Origin: Cloacibacillus sp. An23
GTDB taxonomy: Bacteria > Synergistota > Synergistia > Synergistales > Synergistaceae
NCBI RefSeq assembly: GCF_002159945.1
Contig: NZ_NFJQ01000002.1
Coordinates: forward strand, 124,001 to 188,000
Reading direction: 5' to 3'
DNA: 64,000 nt
Part shown: piece by piece, positions 5,008 through 50,498 of the stretch
Numbering within the stretch: the stretch's first letter is position 1
Layout: each line of letters opens with the position of its first letter
Translations under genes and position numbers: made by a program
Notes under the pieces: generated by a model
What the model saw: the letters and a program-made list of their open reading frames with translations, nothing else
What the model was told of the DNA's origin: nothing
The model's database searches: none

Positions 5008-5796
5008 CTACACGTTTCTACTCCTAAAACTGTCGTTTTTGCCATATGCATCCTTGTACTGTTTCGGCGTCATGTAGCCTAAAGCATAGGCCGGACGCTC
5101 TTCGTTGAAGAATTTTATGTATTCCTCTATCTCATGCTCTATACTTTCTTTGCCTGTTACGTGAAAGTCTGTAAACAGCTCTGCTTTCAGCCAGCCGTTT
5201 ATCGATTCCATCGCCGCATTGTCCGTAGGCGTTCAGGCTCTGGACATGGAGTGCGCTATGTGGTTCAGTTTCAATATGTCGTTGTATTTCCTGGAGGCGT
5301 ATACTGCTCCCTGGTCTGTGTGAAGTATCGTCTGCCATTCCTTTTCTTTATCTTTGTTCCTTATTAGTCCTTCCAGCCCGTTTATGTACGTCATTCTGTC
5401 GCCGCGTCTTGAAGACAGCGCGTGGCTTACTATCTCGTTGTTCCACAGGTCCATGTACAGTGTGAGCTCATAGTACGTGCCTTTGAAGCAGAACGCCGTC
5501 ATGTCGCTCGCTATGTACTGCATCGGCGCGTATGCCGGCAGCCCGGCGAGGAGAAGGTTGGGGAACAGCCTATACGGATTGCCGGGCTTTTTATATCTGT
5601 AGCGTTTTGTTTTGCTTTTTATACCGGCGGCCCTGCAGCATTTATGCGCGTAAGGATCGGAGTGGATTATCCCAGTGTCAAGGCGTATCTTCGCGTTGAG
5701 CCACCTGTATCCGTGCGATGGATATTTTTGATGATATTCCATAAATAGCATCACGCTTCCGGCAAAGTCTCTAGCCCTTCTGGAAGGCTCGAACAC
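5008..5796 (-). pseudogene. IS3-family transposase orfB, interrupted by TGA
   Basis: The rve-type DDE domain is clear: ASDMTAF (first Asp), LHTDQGAVYAS (second Asp) and TDNAAMESINGWLKAE (Glu). The frame is open except for one TGA at 5235-5233, read as MSRA-stop-TPTDNAAMES. The family has glycine here, so one GGA to TGA change explains it. The frame continues upstream without an obvious start to about 5900 (reading QLEYQVILELSEYF), where a -1 slip from orfA, usual in IS3, would join the two. Confidence 0.85.
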
Positions 5797-5885
5797 ACTG
5801 CGTTTCCAGTAATAAAAGCTGCTTCTCGGAATTCCAGTAACATCGCATAGAATGGAGACGGGAAAATACTCGGAGAGTTCCAGTA

Positions 5886-6251
5886 TTACTTGGTATTCGA
5901 GCTGTCTAAAAGAATATATTCCTTTGTTTGACCATCTCCTTTCACCTCGTAGCCTTTTTTTAATCTTGCTTCCGCTACTCTGGCTTTGATCAGCTCAAGA
6001 ATGAGTTCTTCTTTCGTCATGGACTCGTAGTCCGAGATGTCGAGAGGACGCTCGGAAGAATCATGAACATAACAGCCTGTGTTATTTCCTGAAGACTTCG
6101 GCGGAAGGCTGTTGGAATCGCGGTACATCCGCATGTAGTCCCTCGCCGTATCGTCGCTGATGCCGTAATCTTCAGCAGCTTCATAGCGTGTCATAATTCC
6201 TTCATCAACTTTTCGTCCTATTTCAAGACGTTCTTCCTTCGTGTATCGCAT
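5886..6251 (-). CDS. IS3-family transposase orfA
   Basis: The 121-residue protein starts MRYTKEERLEIGRKVDEG and contains a helix-turn-helix (YEAAEDYGISDDTARDYMRMY), followed by a short helical tail of the kind used for dimerisation. It binds the element ends. It overlaps the start of the orfB frame, which lies in the -1 frame. GGAGG sits just before the ATG. Confidence 0.8.
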   Translation of the reverse strand: MRYTKEERLEIGRKVDEGIMTRYEAAEDYGISDDTARDYMRMYRDSNSLPPKSSGNNTGCYVHDSSERPLDISDYESMTKEELILELIKARVAEARLKKGYEVKGDGQTKEYILLDSSNTK

Positions 6252-6380
6252 TGCTGACCTCCTGTACTATAAGTACGGTACTTATGACCCAAGATATTAT
6301 TGTCATGTACAAAAGCAATTATATCCCGGCTCTTTTCTACCCCCTCCGTGTACAGGATTAGTTTAGCAGTGCACGAGAAA

Positions 6381-6471
6381 AAAAAGGACTTTCGGAAAAC
6401 TCCGAAAGTCCTGTAATATCAATGGTGGGCGATATTGGGTTCGAACCAACGACTTCCACCGTGTGAAGGTG
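6381..6471. repeat. Prophage 1 attL core (91-bp direct repeat)
   Basis: These 91 bases are identical to 50382-50472. They contain the tRNA-Val(CAC) terminator hairpin and the last 49 bases of the tRNA gene. The sequence diverges immediately on both sides. The repeat marks the left boundary of the prophage, just upstream of its integrase. Confidence 0.95.
6423..6471 (-). pseudogene. 3' fragment of tRNA-Val(CAC) at attL
   Basis: The fragment covers the anticodon region to the encoded CCA and lacks the 5' half. It is the displaced chromosomal 3' end left behind when the phage recombined into the tRNA gene and supplied a replacement 3' end at 50424. Confidence 0.9.
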
Positions 6472-6596: not shown

Positions 6597-6620
6597 GGTA
6601 GACGAGCGGTAGACGAAAAA
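6597..6620. repeat. Possible integrase arm site, left copy
   Basis: This 24-bp stretch contains GGTAGACGA followed by GCGGTAGACGA and is repeated exactly at 50357-50380, next to the right core. Directly repeated short motifs near the ends of a prophage, outside the core, are what arm-type integrase sites look like. Confidence 0.6.
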
Positions 6621-6635
6621 CGGAGGAAATAAGAC

Positions 6636-7826
6636 GTGAAAATTAAGCTTACACAGAGTATGATCTCCTCAATTTCCAATCCTGAAAAGAGGACTGACTA
6701 TCGGGACAGCGTCGTTCAGGGATTCGTCCTCAGGGTTGAGCCTTCGGGGCGGAAGTCGTGGTATCTCGATTATAAGTTTGAGGGGAAGCGAAAGTGGTGG
6801 TTTATCGGCCACGCTGAGTATGTTTCGCTCTCGGAGGCACGGCGCGAGGCGCAGGCTTTTCTTGGAATTCTTGCGAAAGGGAAGGACCCGCTCGCCGTTC
6901 CGGAGCCGGAGCTGACGTGCGGGCTGCTGCGCGAGAAGTATTATGCACCGTGGGTTATTGAGAACCGAAAGAGCGGAGAGGAGACGGTCAAGGGATTGAA
7001 GCGGTATTTTACGCGCTTCGACGACCGGCCGGCGGGAAGCCTTACGCTCGGAGATATGGAGCTGTGGCGGCGCGAGATGCGCGAGAAGCGGAAACTGAAG
7101 GCCGCCACGCTGAACCGCGCGGCGACTTATCTGACGGCTATGCTGAATTGGGCGGTGAAGCGCAAGCTGATTTCCGAGAATCCGCTGGAGGAGCTGGACC
7201 ATCTGAAGGAGACGGATTCAAAGAAGAGCTGGCGTTTCCTGTCGAAAGATGAGATTTCCGTGCTGAAAGAGGCGCTGCGGGTGCGTGACGCGGCGGTGCG
7301 CGCTAAGGCGCAGCCGTGTATTTACGCAGAGCCGCTGGGCGGCACTTTTGCCGATCCGCTTGAGCCTATGGTTCTGGTGTCGCTGAATACCGGCGTGCGC
7401 TGGGGGACGCTCGTGACGCTGATGTGGCGGAATATCGACCTCGTTCACGGCACTATGTATATCGAGGCTGGCGGCACGAAGTCGGAGACGGCGCAGACGC
7501 TGCCGCTGAACAGCGCGGCGCTCGATACGCTGAAGAAGTGGCGCGACGAGATGCCGGAGGCGGGGCCTGTATCGCTTGTGTTTCCCGCGCCGATGGGCGG
7601 AATGTTTTATAACGTGAATAAGGCGTGGTACAGGCTGCTGGCGGATTCCGGCCTGGGGCATCTGCGCTGGCACGACCTGCGGCATACGTTTGCTTCGCAG
7701 CTCGTAATCGCCGGCATCCCTCTGAATACGGTGCGCGAGCTGCTGGGGCATAAGAATATAAAGACGACGCTGAGATATGCGCATCTCGCGCCGCAGGGGC
7801 TGCGGGCGGCGGTGGAGTGTATTTGA
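6636..7826 (+). CDS. int: Tyrosine recombinase / phage integrase
   Basis: The 396-residue site-specific recombinase inserts and excises prophage 1. The N-terminal 85 residues look like the DUF4102-type arm-binding domain (FVLRVEPSGRKSWYLDY). A SAM-like core-binding domain covers about 95-190. The catalytic domain shows R255 (NTGVRWG), H346 and R349 (HDLRHTFAS), H372 (LGHKN) and nucleophile Y381 (YAHLAP). The start is GTG at 6636 with CGGAGGA eight bases upstream. It lies beside attL and converges on the radical SAM gene, whose stop is one base away. Confidence 0.96.
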   Translation: MKIKLTQSMISSISNPEKRTDYRDSVVQGFVLRVEPSGRKSWYLDYKFEGKRKWWFIGHAEYVSLSEARREAQAFLGILAKGKDPLAVPEPELTCGLLREKYYAPWVIENRKSGEETVKGLKRYFTRFDDRPAGSLTLGDMELWRREMREKRKLKAATLNRAATYLTAMLNWAVKRKLISENPLEELDHLKETDSKKSWRFLSKDEISVLKEALRVRDAAVRAKAQPCIYAEPLGGTFADPLEPMVLVSLNTGVRWGTLVTLMWRNIDLVHGTMYIEAGGTKSETAQTLPLNSAALDTLKKWRDEMPEAGPVSLVFPAPMGGMFYNVNKAWYRLLADSGLGHLRWHDLRHTFASQLVIAGIPLNTVRELLGHKNIKTTLRYAHLAPQGLRAAVECI

Positions 7827-7827
7827 G

Positions 7828-9465
7828 TTATAGGTAGTCGTTTAAGTTAAGTGTCCCTGATACTAATTGATGTCTTGTGATTTTATAGTACCTTAAGATT
7901 TTATGGTATGCAAAAGAAGTACTCATTTCTCCTGAGAGGTACTTTAAGAGGCATTTTCGTTCATTGCGGTCGAGCGCATGCAGCTCACGACGCCATGCTT
8001 CCGTGAGACCACACTCTTCAAATAGTTTCCTGTACTTTATAAATTCATTAGGCATAGTCAATATCTCATGGAACTCTTTAATATCTTTGCCATACGCGCG
8101 CATGAAGAAATCCTTTTCACGGGCGATTACTCCCTTCGTGACATTGAGAATTACGTTCATAGCACTAAGATATTTTTTATTCCAATGCTTTCCAATAAAA
8201 CTTCTGTCTGTCATATTTATCGGAGCTAGTTTCATCGGGAATGAAAATGCATGCAGGCCCTCATAACTGTTGTATAGTCTTACATTTCTACATGCGCGAT
8301 TCCAAAAATCTCCAGGTGTCTCATTGAAATTAAACAACATGTAGTTTGAAAAATGTCTGACACCGTACCTATATGCGATGTCGAAAGCACGTATATAATC
8401 TTTTGTACACTTCGAAGAGTCATACGCCAATCTGAACGGACGAAGAGGAAGGACAGAAAGGATCTTCATCTTCTCTTCGGTTAGAAGCCTAGCGTCGATT
8501 CCCTGATTAAAATCTACATAACGCTGCATCTTCTTCTTAGAACGATAACGTTCAACTACATCTATGATGAAGCTTTTATTCTCCAGCAATGTCTGTGTCC
8601 GAACGCCAGATTGCATGAGAGGAATCATACTGCTTAGGCGATTTGATATTTCCTGATTTTTTATACGCGTTATGAATTTCAGGAAGTATTCCACAAAATT
8701 ATCTACGAGAATAATAATGCTGGCCTTAGTTTCAAGCCTCGTCTCTAACTTGCGAAAAAATATTTTTGCAGGATTGTCCGGAATAAACGTTGGCTTATCT
8801 TTTATGAAACCTAAATCGACGAGAGTGTCGCAAATCTCTTTCAGCTTTGTATTAGGAGCAACAAGTATATTGTTATCCATCAGCAGGATGTTTCTCTTAT
8901 CGCCGTATAGCCTGCGTTCTTCGGTAATCTGTTCTTTCAGATTATTGGTGTATTTAAATTCAGGCTCAAGTATCGAAACAGCACAAAAACTGCATCTGCG
9001 TGGACAGCCTCTTGTTGTATAAGTAATAAAGTTATCCGCCGCAGGGTATTTATACCTAACATCGTCCAGTATATCGTAGTCTATCGGTAACTCATCGATA
9101 TTTACATTGTCGTCATAGCCAAGCATTAACGAAGAAGTCAACTGCCGCGGAATTACATGAGACCGGCCGACTTCGGCCTGCAGCTTATCATGCATTATTG
9201 TCGCAAGTATTCCCCCTATATAGATAGTCTGTTCCGGTAAGAAATTCTGGTAGTGCCGGATGGTATCAATAAGAATGTCGTAATAGAAAGTAAAAAGCGA
9301 AGTTATATATACCCTGTCTGATTTTATAACAGTAGGATACGGGGCTTTGCCTTTATAGAATACAACATTATCCCCCCGTCGCTTATGATATGTGGCTATT
9401 TTCATAAGGCCGATAGGGGGATATTTGTTTTTGTAATCAGGTTCTACTAATAGTATATTTGCCAA
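7828..9465 (-). CDS. B12-binding-type radical SAM protein
   Basis: The 545-residue protein begins with a Rossmann-like domain (ILLVEPDYKNKYPPIGLMKIATY) as in cobalamin-binding radical SAM enzymes. The [4Fe-4S]-binding cysteines follow as CPRRCSFC (C154, C158, C161, a CX3CX2C motif) after ITYTTRG. FNQGIDARLL and the following barrel strands are also typical. The reaction is unknown. It starts with TTG one base after the stop of the ATPase gene, with GAGGAA inside that gene's last codons, so the two are probably translated together. Base composition is clearly more AT-rich than the virion genes. It is the last gene of a three-gene leftward cassette. Confidence 0.88.
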   Translation of the reverse strand: MANILLVEPDYKNKYPPIGLMKIATYHKRRGDNVVFYKGKAPYPTVIKSDRVYITSLFTFYYDILIDTIRHYQNFLPEQTIYIGGILATIMHDKLQAEVGRSHVIPRQLTSSLMLGYDDNVNIDELPIDYDILDDVRYKYPAADNFITYTTRGCPRRCSFCAVSILEPEFKYTNNLKEQITEERRLYGDKRNILLMDNNILVAPNTKLKEICDTLVDLGFIKDKPTFIPDNPAKIFFRKLETRLETKASIIILVDNFVEYFLKFITRIKNQEISNRLSSMIPLMQSGVRTQTLLENKSFIIDVVERYRSKKKMQRYVDFNQGIDARLLTEEKMKILSVLPLRPFRLAYDSSKCTKDYIRAFDIAYRYGVRHFSNYMLFNFNETPGDFWNRACRNVRLYNSYEGLHAFSFPMKLAPINMTDRSFIGKHWNKKYLSAMNVILNVTKGVIAREKDFFMRAYGKDIKEFHEILTMPNEFIKYRKLFEECGLTEAWRRELHALDRNERKCLLKYLSGEMSTSFAYHKILRYYKITRHQLVSGTLNLNDYL

Positions 9466-9466
9466 A

Positions 9467-10966
9467 CTATTCCTCTTTGTCGTAGTACTGTTTTATATAT
9501 GCTCTCATTTTTATAAAGAACTCATATTTATTTTCTTTCTCACAAAACGACTTAATGATCGCTATTAACTCATCATATATTTTTTGCTTTGTCTTCGATT
9601 GAAGCGGCATATCTATCGCAGAGAATTCCGCTTCAATATCGTTATCGTTTTCTGCATTTTTTAAAGACCTTGGTTTCTGAATCTCTCTCTTGCAGAATTC
9701 AAAAACTTCTTCTTCACTTGGCGAAACAGATAATTTCATATATGCTTCGCGCAGATTCTCTTCTTTCATTTTATCAGATTTTGATGTAGAATGGCTATTA
9801 AAATATCTTGATGATGCATATCTATATCTAAATAATTTCTCCATGAAATCTATAAGCGTATACTTTAGTTGTCTTGAGCTTTTGTCTGGCTTAAACCAGT
9901 CGCGTCTAGCGTTATCAACTAATACGTTGCTGTCTAACAGCAATTCTCCATAAACACCTCTAAGTGTTTGGACTAATTCTCTGTGAGTTGAAATGAATGT
10001 ACTACTGGAAGATGATATATTGGCTAGTGTATCGTTGTTACCCATAAGCACATTTTTTGATCTGACAAGAATTCCATATAAGTTATCGTTTTTTCTTGCT
10101 GATAATTTCTGGTCGAAGGTAAACCATAAAAGGCCAATTGGACCGATGTCTTCCGTTTGACTATTGACAATGCCATTTATAGTCCAGAATTTTATACCTG
10201 AAGCTAAAATGTTATCTTCGCAATATTCTTTTTCTAACTTTTCGCCATTCAAGAACACGGGACAGAAATATTTAGATAAAGGACTTCCCATTATTTTCTC
10301 GTACTCATCTTCTATTTGAGTATGTGATTTAAATGTCTTTGAATATTTTATCGGGAGTAGCAATGATATATTGTGCTTAAAGTTTATATTGTTGATGGTT
10401 TCATCTATCTCTTCATTATAATCATGTAAAGTTACCTGGAAGAAATGGTCATTTAGATTTCCTTTATATTCGTATGATGAAATTTTTGCTATTTGGCTAA
10501 TTACTTGATTCACAGTTTGATTACTGTCTTTTGCTATTTTCGTTTCCAAGATGCTACGATACATGTCTCCGTCCCACTCACATGTATCCACGTGCTGTTT
10601 CCCTGCAACTTTATTTTCAAATGTTAACCGAGAACAAAAAAGAAGGCCAGATAAACGTCCTATACCTCTAAACCCGATATTACCTTTTGATCCTAGTTTA
10701 TCTGAATCTCCTAGTCTTAGCATTATTGTGCTGAAATTATCTTTTATTCCGTATCCGTTATCTTTTATTACTATATCCTTGTTTTTCTGGTCTATGTCTA
10801 TGTTTACACAAAAACCATCAAACTTAAGAGATGTGTCTTCTGTTGCAATATTGAATGCATCGAGTGAATTTTGTACGTACTCTCTAAAGATAATAATGGG
10901 ATCTTCGTATAACGAAGATGTTAATGTCTCTAATACATCGCGACCTATGAGGATTTCCTGCTGCAT
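9467..10966 (-). CDS. Hsp90-like (GHKL) ATPase
   Basis: The 499-residue protein starts with a Bergerat-fold ATPase domain: N box FREYVQNSLDAF (E29, N33), G1 box KDNGYGI (D69), and a glycine-rich lid GNIGFRGIGRLSG at about 95-107. The layout of Hsp90, MutL and MORC proteins is similar, so ATP-driven N-terminal dimerisation is likely. The C-terminal half has no motif I can name and ends in a lysine-rich helical region. It is the middle gene of the cassette; its ribosome site lies inside the end of the cyclase-like gene three bases upstream. GHKL ATPases of this type recur in bacterial defence loci, but the role here is inference. Confidence 0.85.
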   Translation of the reverse strand: MQQEILIGRDVLETLTSSLYEDPIIIFREYVQNSLDAFNIATEDTSLKFDGFCVNIDIDQKNKDIVIKDNGYGIKDNFSTIMLRLGDSDKLGSKGNIGFRGIGRLSGLLFCSRLTFENKVAGKQHVDTCEWDGDMYRSILETKIAKDSNQTVNQVISQIAKISSYEYKGNLNDHFFQVTLHDYNEEIDETINNINFKHNISLLLPIKYSKTFKSHTQIEDEYEKIMGSPLSKYFCPVFLNGEKLEKEYCEDNILASGIKFWTINGIVNSQTEDIGPIGLLWFTFDQKLSARKNDNLYGILVRSKNVLMGNNDTLANISSSSSTFISTHRELVQTLRGVYGELLLDSNVLVDNARRDWFKPDKSSRQLKYTLIDFMEKLFRYRYASSRYFNSHSTSKSDKMKEENLREAYMKLSVSPSEEEVFEFCKREIQKPRSLKNAENDNDIEAEFSAIDMPLQSKTKQKIYDELIAIIKSFCEKENKYEFFIKMRAYIKQYYDKEE

Positions 10967-10969
10967 CTT

Positions 10970-11731
10970 CTATTTGACTCCTTTTTCAATCAAATAATTT
11001 TTTGTCCACACGTATTTAGAACGAACATGCATATTTTTCTTATAGTTTTTTATTTCTGTATTTAGATAATGTAAAGTACCTGTCTCATAAAATAATTGAC
11101 GGATGTCATCGGCATAGACTTTTTCTTCTAAGGCATAGCATTGTATAAAATCTATTGATTGTTCCCCATCAATAGACGAAAAAAGAAGTTGGGACTTATC
11201 TACTTTAGAATCGTCCAGCAACTTGAGTACGGATTCACCTAAGACTATTCTTGGAAACACAACGTCGTGTTCTTGATGCAAATATGCTTCTATATATGCA
11301 GGTCCTATGATTTGTTTCCCTTCATCTTCGACTGTGACATCTCCATACTCAATAGCGCCTCTCAGTAAATTGTGGCATTCCGTTAATACCCTAAATTGAA
11401 ATCGTGCTAAACGTTTGATTAGTGCCTTAATCTCGTATGCGGGGCATATGCATATAAATGAATCAGATATGTAAAGTCTTGTCACATTCTTGATCCGCTG
11501 TGTTTCGTCAAGAAAAATATCTTTGATTTGCTCCATTTTTTGAATAAAGCTACTGACATCTTTATTATGTATACTGTCATATATCTGTTTCTTGATTCCT
11601 AGTAGATCTATATAGACAGCAATAGCAGGCTTAAAAGAGTATAACGGAGTCTCCTCTCGTGATTCTGCCGGTTTTTCTTTGATAAACTGGGCAAATTCTT
11701 TATTCAGATCTGTCAGATCGCCTGTTGCCAT
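10970..11731 (-). CDS. Nucleotide cyclase-like (palm-domain) protein
   Basis: The 253-residue protein has the motif order of a class III cyclase core: a strand ending AVYIDLLGI with a candidate metal aspartate D42, RLYISDSF with a second aspartate D90, LLRGAIEYGDV, then GPAYIEAYLHQE and PRIVLGESV. The base- and transition-state-contacting Asn/Arg of true adenylyl cyclases are not obvious, so the product is unknown and the domain may not be active. No membrane segment is visible. GAGGGA precedes the ATG. It is the first gene of the leftward cassette and probably its sensor or signal generator; that role is inferred. I know no characterised homologue. Confidence 0.6.
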   Translation of the reverse strand: MATGDLTDLNKEFAQFIKEKPAESREETPLYSFKPAIAVYIDLLGIKKQIYDSIHNKDVSSFIQKMEQIKDIFLDETQRIKNVTRLYISDSFICICPAYEIKALIKRLARFQFRVLTECHNLLRGAIEYGDVTVEDEGKQIIGPAYIEAYLHQEHDVVFPRIVLGESVLKLLDDSKVDKSQLLFSSIDGEQSIDFIQCYALEEKVYADDIRQLFYETGTLHYLNTEIKNYKKNMHVRSKYVWTKNYLIEKGVK

Positions 11732-11804
11732 GTATTCTCCCTCATTGTCGAATTATTTTTTTATGTAACATTGTTTTTTTATTGTTGAATTTAAAAACAT
11801 CTTC

Positions 11805-11810
11805 ATTATA
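11805..11810 (-). promoter_or_regulatory. Possible -10 box of the leftward cassette
   Basis: TATAAT on the minus strand lies 74 bases before the cyclase-like gene within an AT-rich gap that follows the HNH gene. No convincing -35 is seen. It would let the cassette be read separately from the repressor operon. Confidence 0.3.
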
Positions 11811-11855
11811 CCTAAGTCGAACGGGAGGTGGTAGATTTTCTCGCCGCTCAGTCTG

Positions 11856-12914
11856 TTACAATACTTTCATCTTAGACATTTTTCTTATAACAAACGTCCT
11901 CTCTTCGTTGCGCAGGTAGCAGAAGGCGCGGACGGCGGCAGCTCCGTGGGGCGTTTTTACGTAGCGGAGAGGTTTCGCTGTTCTTCTTGTGTAGTTGCCT
12001 TTTGTGTCTTTGTAGGTAAATTCGATGTTTCTGTCTCTGTTTATCGCGTCGTCGATTTTTGTTCGGTTTTTGCCTTTGCGTATGTCTATGTCTTTTGCAA
12101 GGAGCCCGTTATGTACTTCGTTATGGCAGTCTTCGCAAAGGCATATCAGGTTGTCGAGCCTGTTGCTGCCTCCGGCAGAGAGTTCTTTTATGTGATGTAC
12201 GTGGAGAGGTTTGCCGTCTTCTCCGCAACTTTCGCATTCGTGATCAGCGCTCTCTAAAATTATGCGTCTGCGGCTTTCCCAATCGTCGGGATATGTCGGC
12301 CAGTAGTCATTGACCATCATAATGCGTTCAAAGAGCGCTTCGTCTTCTGCTTTAACATCAGGGAAGATTTCGTTAGGAGTCAACGACCTTACTTTTTTGC
12401 ACATGGCCTCATAGCACGTTTTATGGACGTGCGCGCCGTTTGTGAGTGTGACGCGGCTGTCGTCAGGCACGGTCGGTTTGCGGCAGAGCACGCAGTTGTT
12501 TGGGCTGAGGATGAGGTCCCGTTCAAGTTCTCTGCTTACGTGGTCAAAGAGAGATATGAGCGATAAGTATGGGTCGAATACTGGCTCTGTTAAAGGTTGC
12601 CGTGCAATTTTTTCGCCCTTTGCCCTTATTTCGTCGATGGTCGGGTAAGAGGCAGCCGGTGCTTTACGAACTGTTGCGCTCTCTTTTCGCGTATCAACGA
12701 GCTCCGGTACATTGTGCGAACGGCGCTGTTCTGTCCTCTTGGGGATGCCGCCTTCGGTAAGAACGTCTTCTGGTCTTGCCGTGGAATGAGCTGCATTTTC
12801 ACGTCGTCTGCGTTCTTCTTTTTCTTCAGCTTTTTTGGTAGGTTCAAAAATACATTCAATAATAACGAACAAAGCCACAAAAAACACAATTGTAAGAATG
12901 ATATTCAACACCAT
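11856..12914 (-). CDS. Membrane-anchored HNH endonuclease with C-terminal WYL-like domain
   Basis: The 352-residue protein has a single N-terminal membrane helix (about residues 3-22) and then a charged, probably disordered stretch. A first zinc-binding region follows (CVLC 141-144, H164, C167). An HNH nuclease domain has CESC 227-230, HVHH 238-241, N255, CEDC 260-263 and H267. The tail (about 288-350; IEFTYKDTKGNYTRR, YLRNEERTF) resembles WYL ligand-binding domains. The set suggests a membrane-tethered nuclease gated by a ligand. It lies 94 bases downstream of the repressor gene on the same strand, so it may be expressed in the lysogen. AGGAG precedes the ATG. Confidence 0.75.
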   Translation of the reverse strand: MVLNIILTIVFFVALFVIIECIFEPTKKAEEKEERRRRENAAHSTARPEDVLTEGGIPKRTEQRRSHNVPELVDTRKESATVRKAPAASYPTIDEIRAKGEKIARQPLTEPVFDPYLSLISLFDHVSRELERDLILSPNNCVLCRKPTVPDDSRVTLTNGAHVHKTCYEAMCKKVRSLTPNEIFPDVKAEDEALFERIMMVNDYWPTYPDDWESRRRIILESADHECESCGEDGKPLHVHHIKELSAGGSNRLDNLICLCEDCHNEVHNGLLAKDIDIRKGKNRTKIDDAINRDRNIEFTYKDTKGNYTRRTAKPLRYVKTPHGAAAVRAFCYLRNEERTFVIRKMSKMKVL

Positions 12915-13008: not shown

Positions 13009-13563
13009 TTATGCTGTCTTCTCGTCCGTTTTTTTGTTGTCTTCTATAATGAGAATTGCCAGTGTTTCGTGCAGTGCCTGCGCAATTATCTCACGTTTGG
13101 TTTTGTCGTATAGGTGGGCTTCGGTTTTCACTTTGTCGCGAAGCAATAGCGCTATCGTGTCGGTTCCCAGAGTTAATATTGTGCTTTGAGGATCTACGGC
13201 TTTCATGTTTTGAGAGTTGGATTCGTCATATTCCAGCAATTGTTTCCTATCGGTTTTTCTGTCGTATGTGGTCGCCCCTGCTCTGATAAAAGGATTCGTT
13301 ACACCGCTGCCTTGGTGTTTTTCTTTCGGAAGACCTAAGCCTAGTAACTGTATTTCGACCTCAGGCTCATCGCTTTCTCCCATGAGGTACGCAACGCTTG
13401 TATGCAGAAACTGAGCTAACTTCAGCTTTGTTTCATCGTCTGGCTCATTTATGTTATTCTTCCAACGCGATAAAGTTGCACTTGATATATTAAGTCCTTC
13501 AAGTAAATCTTTAGTTTTTATCTGTATTTCTTTCTGTCGTTTGGTTATGCGCTCGCCTTTCAT
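13009..13563 (-). CDS. Phage repressor, XRE family
   Basis: The 184-residue protein has an N-terminal XRE helix-turn-helix (DLLEGLNISSATLSRWKNNINEPDDETKLKLAQFL) and a C-terminal part without an S24 peptidase, so induction does not look like LexA-type self-cleavage. It sits head to head with the Cro-like gene across four operator-like repeats and likely maintains lysogeny of prophage 1. HNH and cassette genes lie downstream in the same direction. Confidence 0.8.
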   Translation of the reverse strand: MKGERITKRQKEIQIKTKDLLEGLNISSATLSRWKNNINEPDDETKLKLAQFLHTSVAYLMGESDEPEVEIQLLGLGLPKEKHQGSGVTNPFIRAGATTYDRKTDRKQLLEYDESNSQNMKAVDPQSTILTLGTDTIALLLRDKVKTEAHLYDKTKREIIAQALHETLAILIIEDNKKTDEKTA

Positions 13564-50356: not shown

Positions 50357-50380
50357 GGTAGACGAGCGGTAGACGAAAAA
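50357..50380. repeat. Possible integrase arm site, right copy
   Basis: This 24-bp stretch is identical to 6597-6620 and lies one base inside the right core. It carries GGTAGACGA and GCGGTAGACGA in direct orientation. Confidence 0.6.
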
Positions 50381-50381
50381 G

Positions 50382-50413
50382 AAAAAGGACTTTCGGAAAA
50401 CTCCGAAAGTCCT
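50382..50413 (-). terminator. Terminator of tRNA-Val(CAC)
   Basis: AGGACTTTCGG and CCGAAAGTCCT pair around a short A/T loop, with TTTTT at the end on the minus strand. It lies 11 bases after the tRNA and is part of the att core, with an identical copy at 6381. Confidence 0.88.
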
Positions 50414-50472
50414 GTAATATCAATGGTGGGCGATATTGGGTTCGAACCAACGACTTCCACCGTGTGAAGGTG
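50382..50472. repeat. Prophage 1 attR core (91-bp direct repeat)
   Basis: Identical over 91 bases to 6381-6471. It forms the 3' half and terminator of the intact tRNA-Val gene, so integration leaves the tRNA functional. Confidence 0.95.
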
Positions 50473-50498
50473 ACACTCTACCGCTGAGTTAATCGCCC
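50424..50498 (-). tRNA. tRNA-Val (anticodon CAC), prophage 1 attachment gene
   Basis: The cloverleaf is intact: GGGCGAT pairs with ATCGCCC, the anticodon stem TCACC/GGTGG encloses TTCACAC, the T-arm has GGTTCGAACCC, and CCA is encoded. The 3' half belongs to the phage-supplied core repeat. Confidence 0.96.

Follow-up and report, generated by a model that had tools for sequence, protein, structure and literature searches.

Several described systems share a component with the locus considered here, a three-gene cassette in a prophage of Cloacibacillus sp. An23. Pycsar, like the cassette, is a mobile set of genes that includes a protein with the class III cyclase fold, and prokaryotic viperins are likewise radical S-adenosylmethionine (SAM) enzymes with a possible antiviral role. 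MZA and the GHKL/MutL/MORC-type defence ATPases also include a GHKL protein in a multi-gene mobile system. The HerA-NurA resection complex, HerA-based defence, and the Dnd/Dpd systems are brought in by sister loci of the cassette, which carry HerA with a NurA-like protein in one type and DndB (DGQHR) with an SNF2 helicase in another. The closest paper covers Dnd systems together with HerA/FtsK relatives, without a radical SAM-GHKL pair (PMC10853773). The window, meaning the whole 64,000-nucleotide (nt) stretch analysed (NZ_NFJQ01000002.1, positions 124,001-188,000; coordinates below are those of the window), encodes a cyclase-like protein, a GHKL ATPase, and a radical SAM enzyme side by side. 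This trio belongs to a radical SAM-GHKL family that is a real, widespread mobile system. The radical SAM-GHKL pair is the conserved core of this modular family, to which an exchangeable third part is added.

The cassette genes run leftward (minus strand) in the order cyclase-like, GHKL, radical SAM, separated by gaps of 3 and 1 bases. The cyclase-like gene (10970..11731) encodes 253 residues from an ATG start, as assigned from the open reading frame (ORF) list, a predicted structure, and a profile alignment. The GHKL (Hsp90-like) ATPase gene (9467..10966; 499 residues, ATG start) was identified by Pfam, conserved columns, and PDB matches, and the radical SAM gene (7828..9465; 545 residues) by Pfam and a predicted structure. 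The TTG start of the latter agrees with the N-termini of full-length homologues. The cassette has a G+C content of 36.1%, compared with 56.3% for the remainder of 6636-50400; no other 3.9-kb block of the window is as AT-rich, the lowest non-overlapping one having 44.2%. It lies between the integrase and the repressor of the prophage, with the integrase gene converging on it and 1 base separating the stop codons. A preliminary description of this DNA had noted three leftward genes with junctions of 3 and 1 bases, their AT-richness, and their position between integrase and repressor, all of which are borne out by the ORFs and the G+C scan.

The distribution of the trio was followed with a radical SAM profile; a species-level genome collection yielded 404 relatives, of which the best 80 were used. 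Additional loci came from viral contigs, phages, and plasmids, and all were grouped by neighbour clustering. Database loci were retrieved with the radical SAM profile alone, and subtype frequencies apply to close relatives of the window's radical SAM protein, not to the whole family. The order cyclase-like, GHKL, radical SAM is found in the window and in 10 further loci (L010-L014, L017, L018, L020, L021, L023), while L037 holds all three genes in a different order. In the radical SAM tree, the trio proteins form one clade with a Shimodaira-Hasegawa-like approximate likelihood ratio test (SH-aLRT) support of 96. It comprises 12 trio rows and L009, a locus cut at a contig end and hence without the upstream gene. 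The clade spans Bacillota, Omnitrophota, Nitrospirota, and Mycoplasmatota as well as the Synergistota genome of the window. That three unrelated genes simply came together by chance in this prophage is next to impossible, as the recurrence of this gene order at 10 other loci in four more phyla and the single clade rule it out.

The flanks of the trio loci vary and include ParA-ParB, polysaccharide export, dockerin, and transglutaminase genes. The unit is therefore the three genes and not a longer operon. These flanks share no housekeeping or biosynthetic operon, the setting that the preliminary description had named as contrary to its proposal of an anti-phage system. Its further suggestion, that the three genes might co-occur in this order in unrelated contexts, holds at the 10 further loci, which lie far outside this prophage lineage. 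Across the phylum, the radical SAM gene is present in 14 of 188 genomes, and none of the listed relatives from the same genus or family gives a match in this 188-genome search. Among 392 genomes of one clostridial order there are two strong cyclase-like matches (>300 bits), both in radical SAM-positive genomes, and the remaining matches to the profile score <95 bits. Of ten carriers, nine have a single copy per genome by profile search, and the tenth also has one weaker cousin. The view of the trio as one functional unit that is horizontally mobile is supported.

The radical SAM-GHKL core recurs across many bacterial phyla and in one archaeon. Of 104 radical SAM loci, 71 have GHKL directly adjacent on the same strand and 79 have it within four genes; some of the exceptions are contig ends or opposite-strand copies. 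Type I is the trio of cyclase-like, GHKL, and radical SAM genes. Type II, the commonest, consists of NurA-like, HerA, GHKL, and radical SAM genes, with a HerA or NurA-like gene at ~45 loci. The identity of HerA is firm (expectation value, E, 7e-54) and that of NurA weak (E 0.019, the sole match). In type III, DndB and/or ParB-like genes, frequently together with an SNF2 helicase, precede radical SAM and, in most cases, GHKL; this type occurs chiefly in viral contigs and on plasmids of alphaproteobacteria. Type IV combines a ParB/GmrSD_N-like gene with radical SAM, with no GHKL detected, and some Bacteroidota loci add an AAA_15 (OLD-type) ATPase and a second GHKL.

Individual loci add to this range. 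L015, L016, L019, L046, and L091 combine radical SAM with a ParB/GmrSD_N-like gene, and GHKL was not detected in them, so the ATPase is not universal. At the plasmid and viral loci L001-L004 and L095-L101, radical SAM and GHKL are accompanied by changing combinations of DndB (DGQHR), SNF2 helicase, and ParB-like genes; L002-L004 also have a PIN-like gene and another GHKL-like one. Bacteroides and Dulem phages (L168, L170) encode shorter and only distantly related radical SAM proteins (phrog_9298) near DNA methyltransferases and, in L168, also near a 3'-phosphoadenosine 5'-phosphosulfate (PAPS) reductase.

A DNA-linked target is expected mainly because sister subtypes have DNA-handling modules (HerA-NurA; DndB/SNF2/ParB) where the trio has the cyclase-like protein. 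These partners also lend themselves to an explanation by protective DNA or RNA modification, in which the radical SAM enzyme would hypermodify self or prophage DNA and partner modules would restrict unmarked DNA, as in Dnd/Dpd. DndB, SNF2 helicase, ParB-like, and HerA-NurA partners are consistent with this, as are the methyltransferases and PAPS reductase near the distant phage relatives and the presence of MiaB, a radical SAM enzyme of nucleic acids, among the nearest folds. However, the trio operon has no nuclease of its own, HerA-NurA acts in repair too, and we know of no radical SAM DNA-base modifier used for restriction. Modification of this kind is considered unlikely.

Predicted structures were made for the radical SAM and cyclase-like proteins, and the GHKL protein was judged by its sequence. 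The cyclase-like protein has no Pfam match. Its predicted structure (predicted local distance difference test, pLDDT, 91) adopts the class III nucleotidyl-cyclase fold, and all 50 listed PDB matches are class III cyclases (best E 2e-6), including a bacterial (Pycsar-type) cyclic UMP (cUMP) synthase. The metal-binding aspartates D42 and D90 are invariant in the family alignment and align with the metal Asp residues of Rv1625c. However, in a low-scoring profile alignment the transition-state Asn and Arg of VNxAxR are not kept, and hydrophobic residues stand in their place in the family consensus. Cyclic-nucleotide synthesis is doubtful because the protein lacks this Asn and Arg, and we take it for a nucleotide protein of the cyclase fold, probably not an ordinary cyclase.

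The same residues bear on a signalling explanation, in which the cyclase-fold protein makes a messenger on infection in the manner of Pycsar or CBASS, GHKL is its receiver, and the radical SAM enzyme acts as effector. The fold, the cUMP synthase among its matches, and both conserved metal Asp residues agree with such a scheme, whereas the replacement of the Asn and Arg does not. Other subtypes also have the core without a cyclase, and no messenger-binding effector domain is seen. Signalling is regarded as quite improbable. Elsewhere, the cyclase-like family was found in viral contigs only in its own prophage and as distant cousins. At L232 (5875-9465), a cyclase-like cousin adjoins an 844-residue HD-CE and GHKL ATPase protein, with no radical SAM gene detected, which is another pairing of the cyclase fold with GHKL.

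The GHKL protein matches HATPase_c_3 (PF13589, E 1.5e-11). Its ATP-binding motifs comprise an N-box (E29..N33..D36), DNGxGI (D69, N70, G73), and GFRGIGR (G98/G101/G103). The Bergerat motifs, namely the N-box Asn, DxGxG, and the G-rich lid, are invariant columns across 16 diverse members. The resemblance to HtpG and TRAP1 is in the ATPase domain alone, with PDB matches spanning residues ~9-133. An identity as an Hsp90/HtpG chaperone is not supported, as the middle and C-terminal Hsp90 domains are not matched and equivalog models score far below their cut-off.

The radical SAM protein matches PF04055 just below the Pfam cut-off (E 3e-6) and the Pfam B12-binding domain at E 0.003 only. Its predicted structure (pLDDT 95) is closest to the solved folds of MgmA, AprD4, TsrM, MiaB, and RimO, at about 9-13% identity to MgmA, AprD4, TsrM, and MiaB/RimO. 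The architecture consists of a B12-type Rossmann N-domain followed by the SAM barrel, by fold match to TsrM, MgmA, and AprD4, with a helical insertion at residues ~232-307 and a helical C-terminal part. Across 61 diverse relatives, CxxxCxxC (C154/C158/C161) and a DFNQG motif do not vary. No DxHxxG motif is seen. AprD4 and MiaB have a related N-domain without cobalamin.

These results refine the family assignments of the preliminary description. The Hsp90-like ATPase is upheld by intact GHKL ATP-binding motifs. For the B12-type radical SAM enzyme, the N-domain fold and invariant CxxxCxxC agree with the assignment, with cobalamin binding no more than a possibility. For the cyclase-like protein, the class III fold and both metal Asp residues stand, but the making of a signal is put in doubt by the replaced catalytic residues.

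Defence is the best reading of the cassette because of its cargo position in a prophage, its patchy spread, the restriction neighbours at some loci, and the DNA-acting partners in sister types. At L011, the same strand carries a type III restriction-modification pair 28 bases upstream, and genes for type IV DUF3427 helicase-PLD enzymes follow downstream at L018 and L020. The earlier expectation of known defence genes nearby is thus realised at these three loci, but no enrichment over control regions is shown. PADLOC scans gave matches in both flanks and random regions of carrier genomes. The MADS system was considered in the flanks (PADLOC mad2, mad3, mad8) and rejected as unspecific, since the same models match random control regions as often, and the RtcR and AriA models are likewise unspecific. 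No strong match beyond superfamily level was found for the three proteins in PADLOC, NCBIfam, or Pfam.

Several observations weigh against a defence role. PADLOC had no match for the cyclase-like (up to E 10) or GHKL protein and, for the radical SAM protein, a weak match to a generic model only. Defence genes are not clearly enriched in flanks over control regions; flanks hold a wider variety of families than controls, with overlapping matches to one protein preventing a clean count. Several trio loci adjoin ordinary genes (ParA-ParB, polysaccharide export, dockerin), and the nearest folds of the radical SAM protein cover enzymes acting on protein (MgmA, RimO), RNA (MiaB), and small molecules (AprD4). 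One alternative is a role outside defence, in which maturation of a protein, RNA, or small molecule falls to the radical SAM enzyme with GHKL as its chaperone, and mobile elements spread a fitness gene. The HtpG/TRAP1-like ATPase domain, the protein substrates of MgmA and RimO and small-molecule substrate of AprD4, and the ordinary genes around some loci agree with this. Conversely, the distribution is patchy, no conserved substrate or precursor gene lies alongside, and the partners are typical of DNA processing, leaving this role improbable. Defence or inter-element conflict is favoured with some reserve.

The defence reading can be extended to a mechanism, in which the trio, a subtype of the radical SAM-GHKL system carried as prophage cargo, would most likely be used against competing mobile DNA such as phages and plasmids. 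The GHKL protein would act as an ATP-driven switch or clamp assembling on foreign nucleic acid or an infection cue. The cyclase-fold protein may bind a nucleoside triphosphate, or perform another metal-dependent nucleotide reaction, and thereby license the GHKL switch. The radical SAM enzyme would be the catalytic output, chemically altering nucleic acid or a nucleotide. This full mechanism is given a little under an even chance. The broader proposal is more tentative: a new class of prokaryotic immune system, whose radical SAM-GHKL core would chemically change nucleic acid of the invader or the cell, or nucleotides, with modular and interchangeable trigger or effector units and, in the window, gating by a non-canonical cyclase-fold protein.

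A 94-nt direct repeat (6378..6471 and 50379..50472, 99% identity) fits the attachment (att) sites of a ~44-kb prophage-like element, with the right copy overlapping the tRNA-Val(cac) gene (50424..50498, minus strand). An additional 24-nt identical repeat is present at 6597-6620 and 50357-50380, and transposase-like pieces of IS3-type appearance occur at 5233-6251, just outside the left repeat. The family calls of the tyrosine integrase (6636..7826, plus strand; PF00589, E 2e-26) and the CI-type regulator, or repressor (13009..13563), hold. Between cassette and repressor lies a gene absent from the preliminary description (11856..12914; G+C 48%, intermediate), which encodes an HNH endonuclease fused to a C-terminal WYL-like domain and is possibly a separate cargo or regulator gene. 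The stretch 11732..11855 (minus strand) is the probable promoter or leader of the cassette, as read from a TATAAT ~80 bases and GAGGGAGA ~5 bases upstream of the cyclase-like ATG. A consensus promoter scan found no site in 11732-11855 and no excess over shuffled sequences.

No description of the pair, trio, or family was found in the open literature, with subscription papers and most preprints outside the search, nor was an assigned function for the radical SAM family found. The preliminary description knew of no described system with this set, and a matching one was not found in the open literature. The gene set and the modular family are apparently undescribed, and the newness lies in these and not in a function. 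If defence is correct, this would, as far as we know, be only the second case of radical SAM chemistry serving bacterial immunity, viperins being the first. Through a GHKL switch and swap-in partners, a single enzyme would then be connected to nucleotide-fold sensors, HerA-NurA, DndB, and ParB-like modules. Should the system prove not to be defensive, the radical SAM-ATPase pair, with 404 relatives of the enzyme, is still a clear target for finding new modifications of nucleic acids, proteins, or nucleotides.

Compared with the systems described at the outset, the trio differs from Pycsar in its replaced catalytic Asn and Arg, the lack of a Pycsar effector, and its GHKL and radical SAM partners. 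Viperins belong to another radical SAM family, as the trio enzyme has a B12-type N-domain and a helical C-terminus, and no viperin model matched. The match to MzaB is very weak (E 0.03), and the trio has a radical SAM partner instead of the Z1 or AIPR partner of MZA. HerA and NurA are absent from the trio subtype, where the cyclase-like protein takes their place. No DndC/D/E or DpdA genes were noticed beside the sister-type loci carrying DndB, and any modification chemistry there would be that of the radical SAM enzyme. The N-domain and barrel fold are common to the trio enzyme and the B12-type radical SAM enzymes (MgmA, AprD4, TsrM, MiaB/RimO), from which it is set apart by its own C-terminal helical part and insertion.

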